A stretch of DNA of 64,000 nt from Rhodovulum kholense (lineage in GTDB: Bacteria > Pseudomonadota > Alphaproteobacteria > Rhodobacterales > Rhodobacteraceae), in NCBI RefSeq assembly GCF_003053725.1, contig NZ_QAYC01000001.1, positions 434,001-498,000 on the forward strand, written 5' to 3'. The translations under genes and the position numbers were made by a program. Numbering within the stretch: position 1 is the first letter of the stretch; every line of letters starts with the position of its first letter. This document shows positions 6,651 to 27,482 of this stretch, in pieces. The notes under the pieces are model-generated. The model made no database searches. It was not told where the DNA came from and saw only the letters and a list, made by a program, of their open reading frames with translations.

Positions 6651-6740
6651 TCCGCTCTGGCCGGCGGGGGCACAGTGCCCCTGTCGGCCGACGCTTCATG
6701 CAGGGGCGCAAGATCGCCCGGCACCCCATTCCAGAACAAC

Positions 6741-6772
6741 AAAAAATCCCGCCCGCCTTCTGGCGGACGGGA
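6741..6772 (-). terminator. Rho-independent terminator of the PAS_5 gene
   Basis: Read on the minus strand, an 11-base stem (6747-6757 with 6762-6772, one C-A mismatch, TTCT loop on the plus strand) is followed by six T residues (6746-6741). It lies about 60 bases past the stop of the PAS_5 gene and also separates it from the convergent DAHP synthase gene. Confidence 0.75.
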
Positions 6773-6832
6773 CGTTTCCTCCGGACAGGCGATACCCGTC
6801 GCCCGGCGTCCGGAGAGGACCATTCCTTGATG

Positions 6833-7471
6833 TCAGAACGCCGGTTCCGGTTCGACGATCCCGCCCTGAATGACCGTCAGTGCCGGGCGGCGCGCCTCGC
6901 CCTCGTCCTGCGCGGGGCGCGGTTCGGGATTGGCGGTTTCGCCGAGGATCTGGAACCGGCGGGGCGTCCAGCCCACGGTGCCGACCGTGGCCAGCGCGCC
7001 GAGGATCTTGGTGGGCGAGCCGTTCTCGCGGGCCAGCGGCAGCAGGATCATCCCGGCGAACAGGGCCTGACGATTGTAGCTGCGCGGCGAGATCAGCGTC
7101 AGCCGCACGCTCGCCCCGTCGCCCGCCAGAAGCGCCTCGATCTTTTCTTCCAGCACCGGCCGCGATTCCGGCAGGATCATCGCCGAAAGCGGCATGCCGC
7201 GCATGTCCATGCCCATGAGGTCGGTCATGTGCTGGCCGGTCAGCCGCAGCCGCAGGTGGCGCGGCGCCATCGCCTCGGCCACGAAGCAGTTCGACAGCGC
7301 CCGCGAGAAGCCGCGCGGATCGAGCTGCGCCCGGCTGGGCAATGTGCCCTGATCGTCCCGCAGCCGGGCCCAATAGGTTTCCACCTCGTCCAGGGCGGAC
7401 AGGGCGCCTCCGGTTCGGTATCCCGACAGGGCGATCACCGCAGCGCGGGGACGGGTTTCGGACTCCACCAT
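6833..7471 (-). CDS. PAS_5-type PAS-domain protein
   Basis: This 212-residue protein appears to belong to the PAS_5 family of Alphaproteobacteria, soluble proteins with one degenerate PAS fold and no output domain. The start ATG at 7471 follows AAGGAG at good spacing; an in-frame extension to 7591 lacks support. The core runs from LDEVETYWARLRDDQGTLPSRAQLDP through AMAPRHLRLRLTGQHMTDLMGMDMRGMPLSAMI to YNRQALFAGMILLPLA, the last segment resembling PAS beta strands. The tail (EPRPAQDEGEARRP) is charged and probably disordered. Its cellular role is unknown. The leader contains a GC stem-loop (7497-7519), and a terminator follows the gene, so it is monocistronic. Confidence 0.82.
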   Translation of the reverse strand: MVESETRPRAAVIALSGYRTGGALSALDEVETYWARLRDDQGTLPSRAQLDPRGFSRALSNCFVAEAMAPRHLRLRLTGQHMTDLMGMDMRGMPLSAMILPESRPVLEEKIEALLAGDGASVRLTLISPRSYNRQALFAGMILLPLARENGSPTKILGALATVGTVGWTPRRFQILGETANPEPRPAQDEGEARRPALTVIQGGIVEPEPAF

Positions 7472-17063: not shown

Positions 17064-17756
17064 ATGAGCCCGTCCGAACAGCCCACGGTCCTGATCGTCG
17101 AGGACGAGCCCGCCCAGCGTGAAGTCCTGGCCTACAACCTTCAGGCCGAGGGCTTTCGGGTGTCGAAGGCCGAGAACGGCGAAGAGGCGCTTTTGCTCGT
17201 GGACGAGCAGGCGCCCGACATCATCGTTCTCGACTGGATGCTGCCCTCGGTCTCGGGGATCGAGGTCTGCCGCCGCCTGAAATCGCGCGCCGATACCCGC
17301 GGCGTGCCGATCATCATGCTCTCGGCCCGGTCGGAAGAGGTCGACCGGGTGAGGGGGCTGGAAACCGGCGCCGACGATTATGTGGTGAAACCCTATTCGG
17401 TGGTCGAGCTGATGGCCCGGGTGCGCGCCCAGCTGCGGCGCACGCGCCCGGCCGCCGTCGGCCAGCGGCTCGAATTCGAGGATATCCTGCTCGATGCCGA
17501 AACCCACAAGGTGTTCCGGTCCGACAAGCCGCTGAAACTCGGGCCCACCGAATTCCGGCTGCTGTCCACCTTCATGGAAAAGCCCGGCCGGGTCTGGAGC
17601 CGCGAGCAATTGCTTGACCGGGTCTGGGGGCGCGACATCTATGTCGATACCCGCACCGTGGATGTCCATATCGGGCGTCTGCGGAAGGCGCTTTGCCAGC
17701 ATGGCGGGTCCGATCCGGTCCGCACCGTGCGGGGCGCGGGCTACGCACTGGGCTGA
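17064..17756 (+). CDS. phoB: Phosphate regulon response regulator PhoB
   Basis: PhoB activates phosphate-starvation genes after phosphorylation by PhoR. The 230 residues comprise a receiver domain (1-~120; acid pair EDE, phospho-Asp in IIVLDWMLPSVSG, Lys in VVKPYS) and an OmpR-type winged helix (SDKPLKLGPTEFRLLSTFMEKPGRVWSREQLLDRVWG, VDVHIGRLRKAL, VRGAGYAL). The ATG at 17064 with GGAG upstream is preferred to the in-frame ATG at 17043. PhoB should bind the Pho box at 11434. In this cluster phoR and phoB are separated by the whole pst operon rather than being adjacent. Confidence 0.96.
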   Translation: MSPSEQPTVLIVEDEPAQREVLAYNLQAEGFRVSKAENGEEALLLVDEQAPDIIVLDWMLPSVSGIEVCRRLKSRADTRGVPIIMLSARSEEVDRVRGLETGADDYVVKPYSVVELMARVRAQLRRTRPAAVGQRLEFEDILLDAETHKVFRSDKPLKLGPTEFRLLSTFMEKPGRVWSREQLLDRVWGRDIYVDTRTVDVHIGRLRKALCQHGGSDPVRTVRGAGYALG

Positions 17757-17771
17757 GCTTTCAGTGCCGAC

Positions 17772-17810
17772 CGGTTGCTGCACGGGCGCCCGGCGGCTTC
17801 CCGATTTTTT
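17772..17810 (+). terminator. Possible weak terminator after phoB
   Basis: A short CGGG/CCCG pairing with internal GC palindrome CGGGCGCCCGG (17783-17793) is followed by six T residues at 17805-17810, 49 bases past the phoB stop. The stem abutting the T run is only four bases, so this is a tentative end of the phosphate operon. Confidence 0.35.
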
Positions 17811-17931
17811 CTGTCAGGAATTGATCCCGGCGCGACGTCGGCCTATGCTGGGCGGGTGTCGCCGGGGCGCTGCCCCTGGGGCGCAAAGATCCGACCACCA
17901 GACCGGCTCCGGGCTGACAGGGACAAGGCAC

Positions 17932-19089
17932 ATGGGACGACCGGGCATCGCCACCGCAGCGGCAGTTTTCATATCCGCGGCGAGCCTCGCCTCGGCCGAA
18001 GAGGGAGGCGCGACCGCCGGTCCCTATGCCACGCCAGAGGCCTTCGGCGAGGCGCTCTTCTTCGATGTGAACCTCTCGAAGACCCGCAGCCAGGCCTGCG
18101 CCACCTGCCACGATCCGGCCCGGGCCTTCACCGACCCGAGGCCGACCGCGGCGGGGCGGGCGGTGTCGCTGGGGGCAGACGGCCACTCGCTGGGCGACCG
18201 CAACGCACCGACCGCCGCCTATGCCATGTTCTCGCCGACCTTCGCCCGGCGCGCCGATGGCAGCTATGTCGGCGGCCAGTTCCACGACGGCCGCGCCGCC
18301 GGTCTGGCCGAGCAGGCGGGCGGGCCGCCTCTGAACCCGATCGAGATGGGGCTGGCCGATGTGAACGAGGCCGCCGCGCGCATTCTGGAAAACCCGCGTT
18401 ACGGCGCAACGCTCGACGCGCTTTACGGCCCCGGGACCGCCTCGGACCCCGAGGCCGTCTATCGCGCCGCGACCTCGGCCATCGCAGCCTTCGAGGCGAC
18501 CGACCTCTTCGCGCCCTTCGATTCCAGGTATGACAGATACTTGCGGGGCGAAGTTCAGTTGACGGATGAAGAAGAACTGGGGCGTGTCCTGTTCTTTTCG
18601 CAGCAGTTCACCAACTGCAATCTCTGCCACCAGCTGCGCAGCTCGCCCATGGCGGCGGACGAGACCTTCACCGATTACAGCTATCACAATATCGGTGTGC
18701 CTGCGAATACGGCCGCGCGTGCGGTCACCGGCGTCACCGCGACCGATCTTGGGCTGCTGGCCAATCCGGCGGTCGACGACCCGGCGGAGGCGGGGAAGTT
18801 CAAGGTGCCGGGGCTGCGCAACGTCGCGGTGACCGGGCCTTACATGCATAACGGCGTCTTCGAGGATCTGCGGACCGTCATCCTGTTCTACAACAAATAC
18901 AACAGCAAGGCGGCGGCGCGGCAGATCAATCCCGAGACCGGCGCACCCTGGGCCGCGCCCGAAGTGCCGGACACGCTGTCGATGGACGAACTGACGACCG
19001 GACCTGCGCTCGACGACGAGCGGATCGACGCGCTGGTGGCGTTTCTCGCGACTCTGACCGATCGCCGTTATGAGGATCTGCTAAAGTAA
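17932..19089 (+). CDS. Dihaem cytochrome c peroxidase / MauG-family protein
   Basis: This is a periplasmic dihaem c-type protein, 385 residues from the ATG at 17932, which follows AAGG and gives a signal peptide ending near residue 22 (ASLASA-EE). The two haem sites are CATCH (56-60) and CNLCH (229-233). Also present are the YATPEAFGEALFFDVNLSKT start of the CCP_MauG domain and the KVPGLRNVAVTGPYMHNGVFEDLRTVILFYNKY segment that carries the distal ligand region. Length and motifs fit the MauG/CcpA superfamily: hydrogen peroxide reduction is one option, oxidation of a partner protein another. The gene follows phoB by 175 bases with no Pho box of its own. Confidence 0.88.
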   Translation: MGRPGIATAAAVFISAASLASAEEGGATAGPYATPEAFGEALFFDVNLSKTRSQACATCHDPARAFTDPRPTAAGRAVSLGADGHSLGDRNAPTAAYAMFSPTFARRADGSYVGGQFHDGRAAGLAEQAGGPPLNPIEMGLADVNEAAARILENPRYGATLDALYGPGTASDPEAVYRAATSAIAAFEATDLFAPFDSRYDRYLRGEVQLTDEEELGRVLFFSQQFTNCNLCHQLRSSPMAADETFTDYSYHNIGVPANTAARAVTGVTATDLGLLANPAVDDPAEAGKFKVPGLRNVAVTGPYMHNGVFEDLRTVILFYNKYNSKAAARQINPETGAPWAAPEVPDTLSMDELTTGPALDDERIDALVAFLATLTDRRYEDLLK

Positions 19090-19545: not shown

Positions 19546-20301
19546 ATGAGCCTTGAACATCTGAGCGCCTTGATCGCTGCGCGCAGCATCGAAGAGCTTT
19601 GGGCGCTGCACACCCAGAAGATGGCCGATTTCGGGTTCGACCGACTGATCTACGGGTTCACGCGATTCCGCGCCGCCAACAGCTTCGGCGACCGCGACGA
19701 CGTTATCGTCCTGTCGAACCATTCGCCGGACTATGTCCGCGCCTTCGTCGACAAAGGGCTTTACATGAATGCCCCGATGGTCCGCTGGGCCTCGCGGAAC
19801 GAAGGCACCAGCAGCTGGCGGATCATCGCCGAGCGGATGGCCCGGGGCGAACTTCCGCCCGAAGAGCTGGAAGTGCTCCAATTCAACCGCTCGATGGGCG
19901 TGGTCGCGGGCTACACGATCAGCTTCAGCGAAATCTCGGTCCGCGCCAAGGGCGCCATCGGGCTTGCGGCCCGGCCCGGGCTCGACCAGGACGATGTCGA
20001 CCGGATCTGGGCCGAACATGGCGACGTGATCCAGCTGATGAACGACGTGATGCACCTGAAGGTGCACAACCTGCCCTATGCCGCACAGCGCCCGCCGCTG
20101 ACCCCGCGCCAGCGCGAGGTGCTGGAATGGGTCGGCGACGGCAAGACCACGCTCGACATCGCCACCATCCTCGGGGTCACCCAGGCCACGGTGGAAAAGC
20201 ACCTGCGTCTGGCACGCGAGGCGCTGGATGTCGATACGACAGCCCAGGCGGTCCTGAAAGCCTGGTTCCAGAACCAGATCTTCCGCGCCGAGTCGCCCTA
20301 G
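19546..20301 (+). CDS. LuxR-family regulator with autoinducer-binding-type domain (LuxR solo)
   Basis: This 251-residue regulator has an N-terminal autoinducer-binding-type domain (~15-165) and a C-terminal GerE helix-turn-helix (~184-245: LTPRQREVLEWVGDGKTTLDIATILGVTQATVEKHLRLARE). The ATG at 19546 follows GAGG. No luxI-type synthase is adjacent, so it is a solo. In the ligand pocket, the segment PDYVRAFVDKGLYMNAPMVRW keeps Tyr63 but has NAP where acyl-homoserine-lactone binders have the DP pair (TraR Asp70), by my alignment. It may therefore sense another ligand or none. It is probably monocistronic. Confidence 0.9.
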   Translation: MSLEHLSALIAARSIEELWALHTQKMADFGFDRLIYGFTRFRAANSFGDRDDVIVLSNHSPDYVRAFVDKGLYMNAPMVRWASRNEGTSSWRIIAERMARGELPPEELEVLQFNRSMGVVAGYTISFSEISVRAKGAIGLAARPGLDQDDVDRIWAEHGDVIQLMNDVMHLKVHNLPYAAQRPPLTPRQREVLEWVGDGKTTLDIATILGVTQATVEKHLRLAREALDVDTTAQAVLKAWFQNQIFRAESP

Positions 20302-20497
20302 ACCGGTGATTGCCCGTCCCGAAGTGACGTGACGTTACATCGGAGGTCGCAGTGCGCGAAGAGGCTTCGCCTTGGGGTTGAATTCCCTTAATTTTCAGCT
20401 TCCCCGGAAGTAGGGATTCCCTGACTACACTTATTGGCGCCAGACCGGCAGATTTTCACCGTTCCGTGAGTGGTGGCCTTGGGCCAAGGAACAGTCT

Positions 20498-20569
20498 CGG
20501 CGAGAAACCGCGCGATTTCGCGGAGAGCGCCGAACCGGGAAACCGGAGCAGGTTGTGGTCGTTTTTTTT
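20498..20569 (+). ncRNA. Possible structured RNA (weak candidate)
   Basis: CGGCG pairs with CGCCG and, inside it, CCGCG with CGCGG (20498-20532); a CCGG-GAAA-CCGG hairpin follows at 20535-20546, then eight T at 20562-20569. Fifteen unpaired bases separate the last stem from the T run, so this is not a canonical terminator, and I find no convincing promoter. Listed because the density of nested pairing in 70 bases is high. Confidence 0.22.
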
Positions 20570-20637
20570 GGCGGTCAGAGCCTGCACCTTTTCGGCAGGG
20601 TCGCCCACCCCAGCGGGCGGTTCGCGAAAGGGCTCAA

Positions 20638-20673
20638 GGGGCGGCAAGCAAGTTAAGGGGGGTTTGCCGCCCC
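20638..20673. terminator. Hairpin at the 3' end of the degenerate GGDEF gene
   Basis: GGGGCGGCAA (20638-20647) pairs perfectly with TTGCCGCCCC (20664-20673) across a 16-base loop, three bases past the minus-strand stop codon. There is no long T tract on either strand, so it may act as a 3' stabiliser or a weak bidirectional terminator. Confidence 0.45.
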
Positions 20674-20675
20674 TT

Positions 20676-22055
20676 TCATCCCTCGCGCACAGTCACCCCG
20701 GTTATCCGTCCATCTCTCGTTTTCGGGTCACGGGCGACTCGCTGTGGGCCGCACCGGTCCCCTGCCCCTCCGGATCGCTGTCGGGACGGGTCGGTCCCGT
20801 CCGCCAGGCCCGAAGCGCGCACCGGGTGCCGGGCGCCGCGGCGTTCGGCAATGTAAAGCGCGCCTTCGGCCCGGCGCAGCGCGGCCTCGACGCTTGGCTC
20901 GTCGAAGGCGGCCATGCTGAGCCCGATGGCGGCCTCCGGCAGGTCGGGGGCAAGCGCCCGGGCCAGACGCTCGGCCATCCGGGCAAGCTCCGTCTCGCTG
21001 GGCACATGGGCCACCACCAGCAGGTTCCGCCCGCGCCAACGGCCGACGCTGTCTTCGTCCCTGAGCGTGCGCGTGGCCACCTGAAGCGCGCGGCCCATGA
21101 TCCCGTCGCCGGGACCGGTTGCCGTCCCGTGACCGGCGGGCGCGCAAAGGATCACCCCGACCGGGCCCTTGCCGTCCAGCAGGTCGCGGTCGGGCCGGAA
21201 CCGGCTGGCGCGCCCGGCGACCGGGTCGAACCGCTCGGTCCGGGCCTCGGCGCGGACGACGCGGTCCATGCTGGCGGCCAGCGCCAGCACCAGCGCAACC
21301 TGCGCCCCCCCCAGAAGGCCGATCAGCAGCTCGAGCGCGGGCCGGGCCGACCGGGCCTCGGGAAAGAGCCGCTCGGCCGCCAGGCCGGCGAGCCAGGGCA
21401 TCGCCAGCGCCAGCCCGAGAAGCCCGCGCGCCCGGAGCCCGTGGCGGCCCCGCGCGAACAGCGGGCGCAGGACGGGATCGGCCCGCAGCACATGCCCCAG
21501 GGCAAGACCGCCCAACAGCATGCAGACAAGTCCGAAGGCCGCGACCGGCTGGCGGCCGTCCGCTGCCGCGAGGACCGTGCCCATCGCGACCCACCAGATC
21601 CCCGTCCAGGCGGCCGCCAGCAGCGCCAGCGCCGCGCCCCTACTGAAGGGCTTGACCGCGAGGCCGAGGTTCAGGGTCAGCACCGCATAGGCCGATGGCA
21701 GGTCGAAACCGGCGTCGGTTGCCAGCATCCCCGGCAACGACGTGCCCGAGATCGCCTGCGGCCAGCCGGGCAGCAAGGCCTCAAGGAGCCCCTGCGCGCC
21801 GATCAGAGCGGCGCCAAGCCCGAGCCCGGTCCAGATCGTCAAAGACCGTCCGGCGGGCCGACGCCCAAGCAGCGACAGCGCAAACAGCGCGAAACCGGCT
21901 GCGGCGGCGGGATGAAGCGAGGCCGCCTCCCGATGCGGCGGGATCAGCGACACCGGCAGCGCGCCAGCCAGGGCCGCGACCAGCATGGCAAGACCAAGCA
22001 GGCGAAGCGCCTGACGCGACAGGGCATGGGCGGGAAAGGCGGCGAGGTTGGGCAC
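20676..22055 (-). CDS. Membrane protein with degenerate GGDEF domain, retained RxxD motif
   Basis: This 459-residue protein has a hydrophobic N-terminal half (about seven membrane segments between residues 15 and 265) and a C-terminal domain collinear with the GGDEF domain of its divergent neighbour (22233-23594). The two share the ASLHPAAAAGFALFAL / AALHPLPAIGFALFGL motif, LRPLFA, and the closing RRAEGALYIAERRG / RRADEALYAAKIRG. The catalytic loop is ruined: GGEEF is replaced by RGRNL (341-345) and the FDLDHFK metal site by LCAPAGH. However, the RxxD inhibitory-site motif five residues upstream is kept (RDED, 332-335). It cannot make c-di-GMP but may bind it. The C-terminal tail after ~410 is basic and glycine-rich. 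Confidence 0.85.
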   Translation of the reverse strand: MPNLAAFPAHALSRQALRLLGLAMLVAALAGALPVSLIPPHREAASLHPAAAAGFALFALSLLGRRPAGRSLTIWTGLGLGAALIGAQGLLEALLPGWPQAISGTSLPGMLATDAGFDLPSAYAVLTLNLGLAVKPFSRGAALALLAAAWTGIWWVAMGTVLAAADGRQPVAAFGLVCMLLGGLALGHVLRADPVLRPLFARGRHGLRARGLLGLALAMPWLAGLAAERLFPEARSARPALELLIGLLGGAQVALVLALAASMDRVVRAEARTERFDPVAGRASRFRPDRDLLDGKGPVGVILCAPAGHGTATGPGDGIMGRALQVATRTLRDEDSVGRWRGRNLLVVAHVPSETELARMAERLARALAPDLPEAAIGLSMAAFDEPSVEAALRRAEGALYIAERRGARHPVRASGLADGTDPSRQRSGGAGDRCGPQRVARDPKTRDGRITGVTVREG

Positions 22056-22232
22056 GGTGTGGCCCCCAAGGCTGCAAGATCTCGGCCCGAAAACCGTAAT
22101 ATTTTGACCCTAATCTGCAGTTAAGGTTAATAAGATTGCGCGACAGGACGAAATAGCGTGCGGCGCGTAACCAAATATTAAACCTATCGCTGCCCAATTC
22201 TGCCGCATAAACGGTGACGAGCGAGCTGTACG

Positions 22233-23594
22233 ATGTGGATCAGTGGCCTGACAATGCGGAAATCCGGAGCGATGCGCGTTCTGGGCCTTGCCATCCTTCT
22301 TGTGATCGGTTTCGGGCTCATCCAGAATCTCCTGTCTCCCCCCGACGACAGCGCGGCGGCGCTCCATCCCCTGCCGGCCATCGGCTTTGCGCTTTTCGGG
22401 CTGGTCTTCCTGACCGGCCCGCAGACCCTGAGCCGCAACGCACCGATCCGCATGATCGCCGCCATCATAGCGGTTCTGGCGGTCGAGCGGCTTCTGGAAG
22501 CGTCGGTCCCCGGCTGGGTGCAGATCGTGGGCCATCCCCGGATCGAGGCATCGATCGAAGACATGGGGTTGCGCGGCATCTTGTCGGTCGAAATCTCCTT
22601 CGCGCTCGCCGTGCTCAATCTCGGACTGCTGGCCGAGCCGTATCAGCGCCAGACCGCGCTGCTGTTCCTGGCTGCCGCCTGGGTCGCGACCACCATGGGC
22701 ATTCTCAAGCTCGCGTTCAATCTGACGCTCTGGCGCGGAGAAATGTCGCCCTATGCGCTCGCGACCATGGTGCTGGTCTGCTCGGCCCAGACGCTGAAGC
22801 TGCGCGACCAGCCGTTCCTGCGGCCGCTTTTCGCCCAGACCAGCTATGGCACCTATACCCGCGCGCTGGTCACCGGGGCGCTGGTCGTTCCCTGGATGTC
22901 GGGCTTTCTCTATTTCCTCAACGTGCGGCCCGATCCCGCCACACATCTGGCGCTGGAGCTTGCCTTCGGTTTCATCGGCTGGATCATGCTGGCACTGGTG
23001 CTGAGCATCGGCCATCTGATGGAGAAATCTAGCCTCGCGCTGGAACATGCCGCGCGTCACGATCCGCTGACCGGCGCCCTGAACCGGCGCGGTCTGTCGG
23101 CGGCTCTGGGCACCCGCAACGAGGCGCGCGGGGTCGTTCTGTTCGACCTCGATCACTTCAAGGCGGTCAACGATGCGCTTGGCCATGACGCGGGCGACCG
23201 GCTTTTGCGCGACATCGCAGAGACCGTGACCCGGAACGTGCGCAACGGCGATCTGCTGGTGCGCTGGGGGGGCGAGGAATTCCTGGTGGTGATGACCAGT
23301 TCGGCCGAGGTCCTGCTGGTGCAGACCGCCGAACGGCTGCGCCAGGCCATCGCCGCCCGGGACCCCATGCGGATCGGCGCGACGGCGCGTCCGGTCACCG
23401 CCTCCTTCGGCGTCAGCATGGTGCATCCCGGCGAGGTCGGCATCGCCGCGGCGATCCGCCGGGCCGACGAGGCGCTTTATGCCGCCAAGATCCGCGGCCG
23501 CAACCGCGTCGTTTCGGCCGCCGCGCTCTGCCAGGCCGATACCGCCCCGCTGCCCACCGCCGACCCGACCGAGCCGACGCGGCTGGTGTCCTGA
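22233..23594 (+). CDS. Membrane diguanylate cyclase (GGEEF)
   Basis: This 453-residue protein makes the second messenger c-di-GMP from two GTP if active. Residues ~10-265 form about seven transmembrane helices of an uncharacterised sensor, and ~280-430 form a full GGDEF domain. The latter shows DPLTGALNRRGL, the metal and guanine site FDLDHFKAVNDALGHDAGD, GGEEF at 346-350, and an intact RxxD inhibitory site (RNGD) exactly five residues before it, so product inhibition is expected. The start at 22233 is preferred; in-frame ATGs at 22254 and 22272 are poorer. It is divergent from a paralogue with a destroyed active site, sharing a 177-base promoter region. Confidence 0.92.
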   Translation: MWISGLTMRKSGAMRVLGLAILLVIGFGLIQNLLSPPDDSAAALHPLPAIGFALFGLVFLTGPQTLSRNAPIRMIAAIIAVLAVERLLEASVPGWVQIVGHPRIEASIEDMGLRGILSVEISFALAVLNLGLLAEPYQRQTALLFLAAAWVATTMGILKLAFNLTLWRGEMSPYALATMVLVCSAQTLKLRDQPFLRPLFAQTSYGTYTRALVTGALVVPWMSGFLYFLNVRPDPATHLALELAFGFIGWIMLALVLSIGHLMEKSSLALEHAARHDPLTGALNRRGLSAALGTRNEARGVVLFDLDHFKAVNDALGHDAGDRLLRDIAETVTRNVRNGDLLVRWGGEEFLVVMTSSAEVLLVQTAERLRQAIAARDPMRIGATARPVTASFGVSMVHPGEVGIAAAIRRADEALYAAKIRGRNRVVSAAALCQADTAPLPTADPTEPTRLVS

Positions 23595-23639
23595 AACGGC
23601 CCGCTGCCCCTCCAGACACGGAAAGCGAGGAACCTAAAG

Positions 23640-23680
23640 CGAGAAACGAAAACGGCGCAGCCCCGTCCGGGTGCCGCGCC
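23640..23680 (-). terminator. Rho-independent terminator of rpsB-tsf
   Basis: On the minus strand GGCGCGGCACCC pairs with GGGGCTGCGCC (23654-23680, one bulged A, one G-T pair, GGAC loop) and is followed by GTTTTCGTTTC. It is 37 bases past the tsf stop. Confidence 0.7.
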
Positions 23681-23716
23681 GCCATGTCTTCGGGTGGTCC
23701 GTGCCGTGCGGCAGGA

Positions 23717-24613
23717 TCAGCCCTGAGCGACTTTCGCCACTTCGGCCGCGAAATCTTCCTCGGCCTTCTCGATGCCTTCGCCGACCTCGATCCGGACAAA
23801 GCCGGTGATGGTGGCACCGGCCGCCTGAGCGGCAGCCTCGACGGTCAGGTCGGGGTTCACCACGAAGGCCTGCCCCATCAGGGTCGATTCCGCGATGAAT
23901 TTCTTCATCCGGCCCGGGATGATGTTGTTGGTGATCACCGCCTCGGGCTTCGGTTTCGCGGCGCCCGCGTTTTCTTCCAGCGCCTTGGCGGTCTGGACGG
24001 CGAGTTCCTTCTCGATCACGGCCGGGTCCATCTGGGCCTCGGACAGCGCCGCCGGGTTCGCCGCGGCGACGTGCATCGCCACCTGACGCCCGAAGGCCTC
24101 GTCGCCGCCGGTCATCGCGACCAGAACGCCGATCTTGCCCATGCCGTCGGCGGCCGCGTTGTGGACATAGGCCACGAGCTGGTCGCCCTCGATCTTGGCC
24201 ATCCGGCGCAGCGTCATGTTCTCGCCGACGGTGGCGATCTTGTCGGTCAGCGTGTCGGCGACGGTCTTGCCGCCCAGATCGGCCGATTTCAGCGCCTCGA
24301 TGTCATCGACGGCGATGGCCGCCTTGGCGATCTCCGCGACCATCGCCTGGAATTCGGCGTTCTTGGCCACGAAGTCGGTTTCCGAGTTCACCTCGACCGC
24401 GACGCCCTTGCCGCCCTCGACGACGACGGCCACCAGGCCCTCGGCGGCGGTGCGGCCGGATTTCTTGGCGGCCTTGGCCAGACCCTTGGTGCGCAGCCAG
24501 TCGACCGCGGCGTCCATGTCGCCTTCGGTTTCGGTCAGCGCCTTCTTGGCATCCATCATGCCCGCGCCGGTCTTGTCGCGCAGTTCCTTCACCAGTGCAG
24601 CGGTGATCGCCAT
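23717..24613 (-). CDS. tsf: Translation elongation factor Ts
   Basis: EF-Ts recycles EF-Tu by exchanging GDP for GTP. The 298 residues match the family. They start with the UBA-like helical region [29 protein letters not shown], then the core with the EF-Tu-contacting TDFVAKN motif ([16 protein letters not shown]), and end with the dimerisation part. The gene follows rpsB by 83 bases, the universal rpsB-tsf order, and ends at a terminator. Constitutive high expression is expected. Confidence 0.97.
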
Positions 24614-25695: not shown

Positions 25696-26598
25696 ATGAG
25701 CGCGGAACTTCCCATTCTCTGCATCGGCGCCGTCCTCTGGGACGTGATCGGTCGCGCGCCCCGCCCGATGGCGCCGGGCGACGACCGCCCCGGCCGGATC
25801 GCGCGCCGTCCCGGCGGTGTGGCGCTGAACGTCGCGGCGGCGCTGGCACGCCACGGGCTGCGCCCGGCGGTGCTGGGGGCGGTCGGGCGCGATGCCGAAG
25901 GCGCGGCGCTGATCGCCGCCACCGCCGCGCTGGGGATCGAGACCCGCTGGCTTCGCCGCGGCGCGCGGCCCACCGACATCTATATGGCGATCGAGGATGC
26001 GACCGGGCTCGTGGCCGCCATCGCCGATGCGGGCGGGCTGGAGGCCGCCGGAGCCGCGGTGCTGGCTCCGCTGATCGACGGCCCGCTCGGTGCGCCCGAC
26101 CGGCCTTTCGCGGGCACCGTGGTGCTGGACGGCAACCTGCTGCCCGGGCTTCTGGCCGGGATCGCAGCCCATCCGGCCTTCGCCGCCGCCGATCTGCGCG
26201 TGGCGCCCGCAAGCCCCGGCAAGGCCGAGCGGATCGCGCCCTTCCTTGCCCGGCCCGGGGCGACGCTCTATCTGAACCGGGCCGAGGCGGGGCTGATCCT
26301 CGGGCGCGAGCTTGCCGATGCCCCCACCGCAGCCGCCGCGCTGCGCGCCGCGGGCGCGGCGCGGGTGCTGGTCACCGATGGCGCGAGGGCGGCCGCCTTC
26401 GCGTCGGACGACCGGCTGGTCGCCGCCTGCCCGGCGCCTGTCGAGGCCGCCCATGTCACCGGCGCGGGCGATGCGCTGATGGCCGCCCATATTGCCGCCG
26501 AACTGGGCGGCGCCCCTGCCGGGGCGGCGCTTGCCGCAGCCCTTGCCGCCGCCACCCGTCATGTCACCGCCGAGGACGATCCATGCCCCTCTCGCTGA
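25696..26598 (+). CDS. psuK: PfkB-family sugar kinase, probable pseudouridine kinase
   Basis: This 300-residue PfkB/ribokinase-fold protein probably phosphorylates pseudouridine to pseudouridine 5'-phosphate. It has the N-terminal ribokinase pattern CIGAVLWDVIGRAP, a glycine pair in the substrate site (RRPGGVALNVAAALARHGLRPAVLGAVGRDAEG), and the catalytic anion-hole motif HVTGAGDALMAA near residue 258. It overlaps psuG by 16 bases, the strongest sign of substrate because PsuK-PsuG pairs act in sequence. A general sugar or nucleoside kinase cannot be excluded from sequence alone. Confidence 0.9.
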   Translation: MSAELPILCIGAVLWDVIGRAPRPMAPGDDRPGRIARRPGGVALNVAAALARHGLRPAVLGAVGRDAEGAALIAATAALGIETRWLRRGARPTDIYMAIEDATGLVAAIADAGGLEAAGAAVLAPLIDGPLGAPDRPFAGTVVLDGNLLPGLLAGIAAHPAFAAADLRVAPASPGKAERIAPFLARPGATLYLNRAEAGLILGRELADAPTAAAALRAAGAARVLVTDGARAAAFASDDRLVAACPAPVEAAHVTGAGDALMAAHIAAELGGAPAGAALAAALAAATRHVTAEDDPCPSR

Positions 26599-27482
26599 GC
26601 TACTCGCCCGAAGTTTCCGACGCCAAGGCCGCCTTCGCGCCCATCGTGGCGCTGGAAAGCACCATCGTCACCCATGGCATGCCCTGGCCGCGCAATCTCG
26701 AAACCGCGCTGGCGGTCGAGGCCGAGGTGCGCGCGGCGGGCGCCGTGCCTGCCACCATCGCCGTCGTCGGCGGGCGGATCCATGCCGGACTGGCGCCCGA
26801 CGCGCTTGAGGCGCTGGCCCGGGCCGAGGGCGTGGCCAAGCTCAGCCGGGCCGATCTGGCGGCGGCACTGGCGCGCGGCATCACCGGCTCGACCACGGTC
26901 GCGGCCACGATGATCTGCGCCCGCCTGGCGGGGATCGCGGTCTTCGCGACCGGCGGCATCGGCGGCGTGCATCGCGGCGCCGAAACCAGCTTCGACATCT
27001 CGGCCGACCTGCAGGAACTGGCGCAGACGCCGGTGACGGTGGTGTCGGCCGGAGCCAAGGCGATCCTCGATCTGCCGAAGACGCTGGAGGTGCTGGAAAC
27101 CCTTGGCGTGCCGGTCATCGCCTATCAAAGCGACGCCTTCCCGGCCTTCTGGTCGCGCTCGTCCGGGCTGGCCGCGCCGCTCCGGATGGACAGCGCCGCC
27201 GAGATCGCCGCCGCGCACCGGATGCGCGGGCTGCTGGGCCTGCCGGGCGGCCAGCTTGTCGGCAACCCGATCCCCGAGGAAGACGAAATCCCCCGCGCCG
27301 AGATCGAGCCGATGATCGCCCGGGCGATGGCCGACACGGCCGGGGCCTCGGGCAAGGACGTGACCCCGGCCCTGCTGGCCCGGCTTTACGAGCTCAGCGG
27401 CGGGCGCACGCTCGAGGCCAATATCGCGCTCGTGCGCGCGAATGCGCGGCTCGCGGCCGAAATCGCCCTCCGCCTCGCCTGA
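26583..27482 (+). CDS. psuG: Pseudouridine-5'-phosphate glycosidase
   Basis: PsuG cleaves the C-C glycosidic bond of pseudouridine 5'-phosphate to uracil and ribose 5-phosphate. The 299 residues match the family. The motifs IVALESTIVTHGMPWPRNLETALAVE, GGRIHAGL, GSTTVAATMICARLAGIAVFATGGIGGVHRGAE, and VVSAGAKAILDLPKTLEVLETLGVPVIAY include the active-site lysine region and manganese ligands. The start overlaps the end of psuK. Together they form a complete salvage/catabolic pathway for RNA-derived pseudouridine. No transporter for pseudouridine is adjacent. Confidence 0.96.
   Translation: MPLSLSYSPEVSDAKAAFAPIVALESTIVTHGMPWPRNLETALAVEAEVRAAGAVPATIAVVGGRIHAGLAPDALEALARAEGVAKLSRADLAAALARGITGSTTVAATMICARLAGIAVFATGGIGGVHRGAETSFDISADLQELAQTPVTVVSAGAKAILDLPKTLEVLETLGVPVIAYQSDAFPAFWSRSSGLAAPLRMDSAAEIAAAHRMRGLLGLPGGQLVGNPIPEEDEIPRAEIEPMIARAMADTAGASGKDVTPALLARLYELSGGRTLEANIALVRANARLAAEIALRLA

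Follow-up and report, generated by a model that had tools for sequence, protein, structure and literature searches.

PelD and CdgG are RxxD-type receptors of cyclic diguanosine monophosphate (c-di-GMP), or regulators that depend on the inhibitory site (I-site). PelD, for which an affinity for c-di-GMP is given in PMC12564702, is described as unrelated to GGDEF domains and as bearing an I-site-like sequence (PMC3509222). Degenerate GGDEF proteins with an I-site are described from other bacteria: for CdgI (YeaI) of Escherichia coli, both c-di-GMP binding and contacts with further GGDEF domains are described, and feedback through heteromers has been proposed (PMC5635695); the RxxD I-site of PopA of Caulobacter crescentus binds c-di-GMP, and PopA is tied to the CtrA pathway (PMC12564702); binding to the I-site of SgmT of Myxococcus xanthus is lost in the R763A variant (PMC3509222). 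An open question is how cells keep many c-di-GMP circuits separate. We analysed a 64-kb stretch of DNA (the window; G000:C1:434001-498000, G000 being its own genome) from Rhodovulum kholense, a marine purple bacterium. It carries two divergent GGDEF genes, called here act (plus strand, a predicted cyclase) and deg (minus strand, a protein with a dead GGDEF domain). We propose, with a probability of about one half, that the two form a CtrA-controlled c-di-GMP module in which Act would make c-di-GMP and Deg would bind it through its I-site, as a receptor and/or a regulatory subunit.

Results

A predicted diguanylate cyclase and a degenerate paralogue are encoded head to head

The two genes and their motifs occupy the following positions of the window:

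20676..22055, minus strand: deg, degenerate membrane GGDEF protein (GTG start, 459 amino acids)
22233..23594, plus strand: act, predicted active membrane diguanylate cyclase (453 amino acids)
23142..23162, plus strand: FDLDHFK, metal site of Act (residues 304-310)
23241..23252, plus strand: RNGD, I-site of Act (residues 337-340)
23268..23282, plus strand: GGEEF, active site (A-site) of Act (residues 346-350)
21138..21230, minus strand: Deg residues 276-306, the best conserved of the dead-protein stretches measured (27/31 positions invariant), ending in the former metal-site strand
21051..21062, minus strand: RDED, I-site position of Deg (residues 332-335; R, E and D invariant in 4/4 dead partners)
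21021..21035, minus strand: RGRNL, destroyed A-site of Deg (residues 341-345)

The genes lie head to head, with 177 bp between their starts. Their products share 33% identity over nearly their full length (BLASTP, single comparison, E 1e-47) and are, by sequence, full-length paralogues. The alignment is free of gaps where it sets RDED of Deg on RNGD of Act and RWRGRNL on RWGGEEF. The positions of the open reading frames and this alignment agree with the initial annotation, which had described two divergent GGDEF genes with these motifs and placed RDED at the inhibitory-site position.

All the catalytic residues checked are present in Act (FDLDHFK, N313, D322, GGEEF, K419 and R423), which should thus be an active diguanylate cyclase making c-di-GMP. 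At the position of FDLDHFK, Deg has CAPAGHG; its other catalytic positions show T for N, a retained D, RGRNL for GGEEF and E for K. In the two columns of substrate-binding N and D, Deg retains only the aspartate that matches D322, and E stands there in two relatives, G013 and G007. From these losses Deg is presumably no cyclase, and the contrast first drawn between an active and a dead paralogue holds at the level of motifs: Act has GGEEF and the metal site, Deg lacks both.

The dead domain nevertheless retains the GGDEF fold, as judged from profiles and models. The Pfam GGDEF model scores 124.7 bits on Act and, on Deg, 22.6 bits, below the 23.8-bit cut-off, or 24.7 bits, above it, in a search of the genome. 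A profile of four dead proteins finds GGDEF chains of the Protein Data Bank by sequence (best E 1.7e-7), and Foldseek matches the AlphaFold model of Deg to the GGDEF domains of DosC (4zvg), Dcsbis with c-di-GMP (4zmm) and PleD (1w25). In this model, residues 321-420 have ten-residue means of 69-90 in the predicted local distance difference test (pLDDT), and the remainder is poor. Because overall pLDDT was low (means of 50.6 for Act and 52.2 for Deg, from four rows each), membrane parts and dimers of the models were left unused. In both models a helix precedes RxxD, and the strand that follows it leads to the A-site hairpin: in Act the helix runs to residue 335 and the strand starts at 341, with RNGD (337-340) between them, and in Deg the helix runs to 330 and the strand starts at 336, with RDED (332-335) between them.

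The dead partners retain I-site residues

The I-site of PleD is formed by R359, D362 and R390 of one GGDEF molecule and a fourth arginine from an adjacent molecule (PMC7288161). R359 and R390 are 31 residues apart, and R332, D335 and R363 (+31) of Deg correspond to the three residues of the first molecule. The R, the D and the +31 arginine are kept in 4/4 dead partners, the Deg proteins of the four genomes that carry the pair, and E334 is invariant as well; the retention of RxxD first noted in Deg thus extends to the other three dead partners and to a third I-site arginine. Among the synthases, RxxD is kept in G000, G015 and G013. The G007 synthase has no I-site arginine of its own (GDSD), and its dead twin retains RAED.

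Purifying selection acts on the dead GGDEF domain

Selection was estimated as omega, the ratio of nonsynonymous to synonymous divergence (dS), by the Nei-Gojobori method. For whole deg, omega is 0.32 (G000-G015) and 0.29 (G013-G007), and for act 0.30 (G000-G015); tsf (0.07) and luxR (0.08) give the scale. The GGDEF domain alone gives 0.27 (G000-G015) and 0.24 (G013-G007) in deg and 0.24 in act. The deep comparison G000-G007, rough at a dS of 0.5-0.9, gives 0.35 for the GGDEF domain against 0.59 for the membrane domain in deg, and 0.26 against 0.27 in act. In an alignment of the four dead proteins, 80/136 positions of the GGDEF domain are invariant versus 108/248 of the membrane domain, and only 2/5 in the A-site; three synthase sequences have 116/152 and 174/251 invariant positions in the two domains. 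Given the omega values and the invariant-position counts, the dead GGDEF domain is better conserved than the membrane half of Deg. By these sequence measures it is under purifying selection, neither decaying nor a passive remnant. The block at residues 276-306 may be a new contact surface. It reads FDPVAGR..FRPDRDL.DGKGPVGVILCAP, includes a conserved cysteine, is almost unchanged across the four dead partners and is unseen in the other alignment rows.

Both genes flank two conserved CtrA-type sites

The intergenic region contains two candidate binding sites of the cell-cycle regulator CtrA:

22111..22124, minus strand: site A, CtrA-type TTAA-N7-TTA(G), 56 bp from the deg start
22168..22181, minus strand: site B, CtrA-type TTAA-N7-TTA(C), 52 bp from the act start, its 14 bases identical in 4/4 pairs

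The full site known from Caulobacter is TTAA-N7-TTAA, and mutagenesis in Rhodobacter sphaeroides is reported to show that CtrA serves divergent flagellar promoters through one shared or two independent sites (PMC6180460). In the window, TTAA-N7-TTA occurs twice, against 0.10 expected, both times in the 177-bp gap; two or more matches anywhere in the window arose in 3/100 shuffles. Both sites are present in 4/4 pairs, always 57 bp apart, and TAACCAAATATTAA in the intergenic promoter region is identical across all four. The three pair loci of relatives (14-16 kb each) have no TTAA-N7-TTA beyond the two sites, and nine further loci have it at one place, in G008, with none in the other eight. The shared divergent promoter region that had been supposed is thereby borne out, and it includes two conserved CtrA-type sites.

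The stricter pattern TTAA-N7-TTAAC was searched in the whole G000 genome, giving 7 matches at 5 places (G000:C1:64636, C4:207687, C6:181810, C7:128524 and C18:19294) versus 2 for a reversed control pattern. The genes beside them are cckA, a PAS gene after regB, chpT, a LuxR-type gene and one gene without an assigned family. CckA was assigned at 248 bits, below the cut-off of its profile, for a protein cut by the end of the stretch, and ChpT at 98 bits, below the NCBIfam cut-off, with Pfam HPTransfase above its own. Profiles show only PAS in the gene after regB, which we take to be DivL-like. A second TTAA-N7-TTAA site lies about 960 bp from the site at the LuxR-type gene. CtrA itself is encoded in the genome (434 bits, above cut-off), and TTAA-N7-TTAC, the form of site B, stands just before ctrA. 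We predict from these matches that the five places make up a compact core CtrA regulon. Since the motif marks the CtrA pathway in this genome, we infer that CtrA controls both deg and act.

The membrane domains are homologous

The matching landmarks noted earlier in the two membrane regions are not due to chance, as the membrane domains of Deg and Act are homologous (E 2.5e-25 for one genome). The regions had been called seven-span-like. A 19-residue hydropathy scan agrees for Act, with 7 peaks, and finds 8 in Deg, and both low-confidence models have eight long helices ahead of the GGDEF domain; the membrane part may thus consist of eight helices. From the last membrane helix (residue 240 in both twins) to D277 the two proteins align without gaps. 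Searched at E values up to 1, no Pfam or NCBIfam family matches within residues 1-240 of either protein.

The pair is rare and occupies a slot between luxR and tsf

We then asked how far the pair extends. With deg as query, relatives at E up to 1e-5 were found in 7/16 Rhodovulum genomes, and the divergent pair in 4/16 (G000, G015, G007 and G013). Members without a divergent partner occur in G008 (four genes), G010 and G012. Relatives that stand alone are of the active as well as the dead kind. The dead protein of R. visakhapatnamense JA181 is 92% identical to Deg over residues 1-427, and the R. visakhapatnamense copy was the one deg relative in a pattern-based scan of genome contigs. Neither a plasmid search nor one viral-contig scan returned any relative of deg, and carriage of deg on mobile elements was set aside.

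The wider samples comprised 295 and 394 genomes of the family, 390 of the order (twice) and 385 of the class, in overlapping draws whose counts include G000 itself. Matches to deg occurred in 2/295 family genomes and to the membrane domain of act in 10/390 order genomes; a membrane profile matched in 18/390 order, 14/394 family and 2/385 class genomes. No further pair was found among the matches listed, whose neighbours were unread for weaker partners. Presence of the pair as a rule across Rhodobacterales, as the initial annotation had envisaged, is not supported by these counts, and the pair is rare in this order, not general.

Its reading frames are not equally preserved. That of deg is intact in 4/4 pair genomes. 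In G013 the synthase frame is lost near the start of GGDEF (L018, about 6690-6960; G013:C1, about 2754690-2754960) beside an intact dead partner, by what looks from the sequence like a short deletion between direct repeats. In another genome a member of the membrane-GGDEF family (L034, G064) is out of frame at the A-site, either a broken copy or a sequencing error.

The slot holding the pair is marked by two conserved neighbours:

19546..20301, plus strand: autoinducer-binding regulator of the LuxR type, conserved as a neighbour even in loci that lack the pair
23717..24613, minus strand: tsf (elongation factor EF-Ts), conserved neighbour marking the slot

The tsf gene is present in 16/16 genomes. 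In 7/7 tsf loci examined besides the window, the same flank of tsf carries a LuxR-type autoinducer-binding gene, which adjoins tsf even where the GGDEF genes are missing. The interval from luxR to tsf contains the pair in G015, G013 and G007 and no deg or act match in G004, G010 and G012. In G008 the slot is filled by a single gene that points the same way as act; its product has an intact RHGD, but its A-site is dead (GGTQF). Comparison with the pair loci thus shows that the slot has held a lone dead RxxD member or a pair. A lone degenerate gene without RxxD in all relatives, which the initial annotation had named as a refutation, is not what the genomes show: RxxD is present in the lone dead members of G010, of G012 and, at this locus, of G008. 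G008 has 32 GGDEF matches versus 2-11 in the other 15 genomes, and four members of the membrane-GGDEF family. Three further genes of the neighbourhood are present in some of the seven relatives' loci and absent from others. One, between phoB and luxR (17731-19089), encodes a di-haem peroxidase of the MauG/CCP type; beyond rpsB, the other two are a pfkB-like gene and its neighbour (25696-27482).

The origin of the dead gene can be described only loosely. A full-length tree of 36 rows, built by a quick method, groups Deg with the lone dead proteins G008b, G010 and G012 with a weak support of 81. A tree of the membrane domain (25/36 rows) leaves the grouping open: a clade of Deg with these lone dead members and a clade of Deg with Act have p-values of 0.17 and 0.18 in the approximately unbiased test, and neither is rejected. 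An origin of deg and act by local inverted duplication is possible on these sequences.

Discussion

In the module proposed here, CtrA would drive both divergent genes, Act would synthesize c-di-GMP, and Deg, which has the same membrane domain and linker register as Act, would bind it at R332, D335 and R363. From there Deg could signal onward as a membrane receptor, or join Act in a mixed dimer and regulate it as a subunit, a role that has been proposed for CdgI of E. coli. We infer both the binding of the ligand by Deg and its partner relation to Act from the alignments and the gene arrangement. The private signalling pair that the initial annotation had suggested finds no support in these data. 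In Caulobacter, c-di-GMP switches CckA from kinase to phosphatase (PMC12564702), so a synthase under CtrA control could influence CtrA in return. One may then imagine a two-part feedback device driven by CtrA: a membrane cyclase in one direction and, about equally far away on the opposite strand, a dead twin which lends its I-site to a mixed dimer or senses c-di-GMP locally, with a loop that could close on CckA. In this complete form the idea is speculative and we hold it to be improbable. The G007 pair, a GDSD synthase beside a RAED dead twin, is what one would expect had feedback moved to the partner.

Several observations weigh against the module. Sites A and B each depart from TTAA-N7-TTAA at the last base, and no sigma-70-type promoter was matched in 20200-23800. 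The I-site residues mapped in Deg are three of four, all from one molecule, the fourth being an arginine of the partner. With 59% of the GGDEF domain invariant, three invariant residues in four sequences, which form two close pairs, are weak evidence if taken alone. One dead relative, G008d, has lost RxxD (EPGE). Over 35 members of the membrane family, RxxD is kept in 9/10 dead and 18/25 active proteins, which is no significant difference (Fisher p 0.39). This count dropped G269 (SGGEF) as unclear, both Fisher tables counting it as active; two entries were placed by hand, G064, of broken frame at the A-site, among the active proteins and act of G013 as active with RxxD kept. In a clade of 18 rows, 7/8 dead versus 3/10 active proteins have RxxD (Fisher p 0.025). 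Despite this value we do not claim a rule that dead members keep and active members lose RxxD, given the p of 0.39 over all rows and an independent-pairs test on the phylogeny that had too few pairs to be informative. Only the motif decided whether a protein was called dead, and activity is possible with an A-site that departs from consensus, as reported for VCA0965 with AGDEF (PMC3974145); judged by sequence, this caveat is weightier for G368, G008d and G269 than for Deg, which has lost several of the residues.

Other explanations share part of this evidence. Deg could be a dominant-negative partner that forms unproductive mixed dimers with Act through the membrane domain and linker, its I-site residues being incidental or structural. 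The twins do have the same membrane domain, a gap-free linker and a shared promoter region, and the GGDEF domain of CdgI is reported to contact several other GGDEF domains strongly (PMC5635695). We nonetheless regard this as somewhat unlikely, since the A-site varies and the I-site triad does not, lone dead members, in G008 at this very locus and in G010 and G012 at others, show that a linked synthase is no general need, and deg is intact in G013 despite the broken synthase frame. It is also conceivable that the membrane part works as a sensor and that the GGDEF remnant is mere scaffold: GGDEF domains of many signalling proteins are remnants, and the membrane domain is conserved in both proteins. 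The slower evolution of the GGDEF domain of Deg relative to its membrane domain, together with the conservation of residues 276-306, the highest among the stretches measured, makes this quite improbable. That deg is a decaying duplicate heading for loss is most improbable of all: deep identity is indeed lower in the dead protein (52-55%) than in the synthase (72%), the pair is absent from 12/16 genomes of the genus, and the G013 synthase shows that loss can occur, but intact deg frames in 4/4 genomes and an omega of the GGDEF domain in close pairs at about the synthase value led us to reject it.

A separate doubt concerns the promoter, where the two sites might serve another regulator or be A+T-rich promoter elements. 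The gap has 51% G+C against 68% in the window, the final consensus A is missing from both sites, and Fnr and CtrA are described as having a common half-site motif (PMC7232146). Against these points stand the confinement of the only two matches in 64 kb to this gap, a spacing fixed at 57 bp in four species and the association of the exact motif with CtrA-pathway genes in the same genome, so that we consider this explanation of the sites unlikely.

If the proposed CtrA-controlled module is real, it would connect c-di-GMP with the CtrA pathway of Rhodovulum. With its shared membrane domain, linker register and promoter region with CtrA-type sites, the pair would be a small natural test bed, in which changing a single residue (R332A) and removing a single gene would distinguish a receptor from a dimer partner. 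A search of the open-licence PMC literature found no paper on a divergently transcribed diguanylate cyclase and degenerate GGDEF paralogue; for GGDEF and c-di-GMP in Rhodovulum it matched one paper, on Arcobacter, and Rhodovulum together with CtrA was not searched for.

How, then, does the locus compare with known systems? PelD and CdgG, which the initial annotation had named as precedents, were compared with Deg by description only; to our knowledge neither adjoins an active paralogue, and PopA has no membrane domain. Otherwise PopA resembles Deg in its dead A-site, its RxxD, its paralogy to an active cyclase (PleD) and its alphaproteobacterial origin (PMC12564702). SgmT likewise has a dead A-site, an intact RxxD and the +31 arginine (R763, R794); unlike Deg, it is a cytoplasmic hybrid histidine kinase, and the cited account mentions no paralogous partner synthase (PMC3509222). 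Dgc1 and Dgc2 of Dinoroseobacter shibae resemble the proposed module in being Rhodobacterales cyclases under quorum-sensing and CtrA control, with a predicted CtrA site at dgc2. They differ in that the partner of Dgc1 is an H-NOX protein and that Dgc2 has a receiver domain, and these reports describe no dead membrane paralogue (PMC6473078, PMC7232146). CdgI shares with Deg the dead A-site, the intact I-site and an N-terminal domain common to active cyclases (DgcT, DgcX), the membrane domains being likened by description; in contrast to Deg, it is described neither as the divergent neighbour of an active paralogue nor as controlled by CtrA (PMC5635695). Precedents of the dead-GGDEF I-site kind therefore stand, with CdgI closer than PelD or CdgG. 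As this kind is already known, what the sequences suggest to be new is mainly the arrangement, a dead twin head to head with an active twin over conserved CtrA-type sites.

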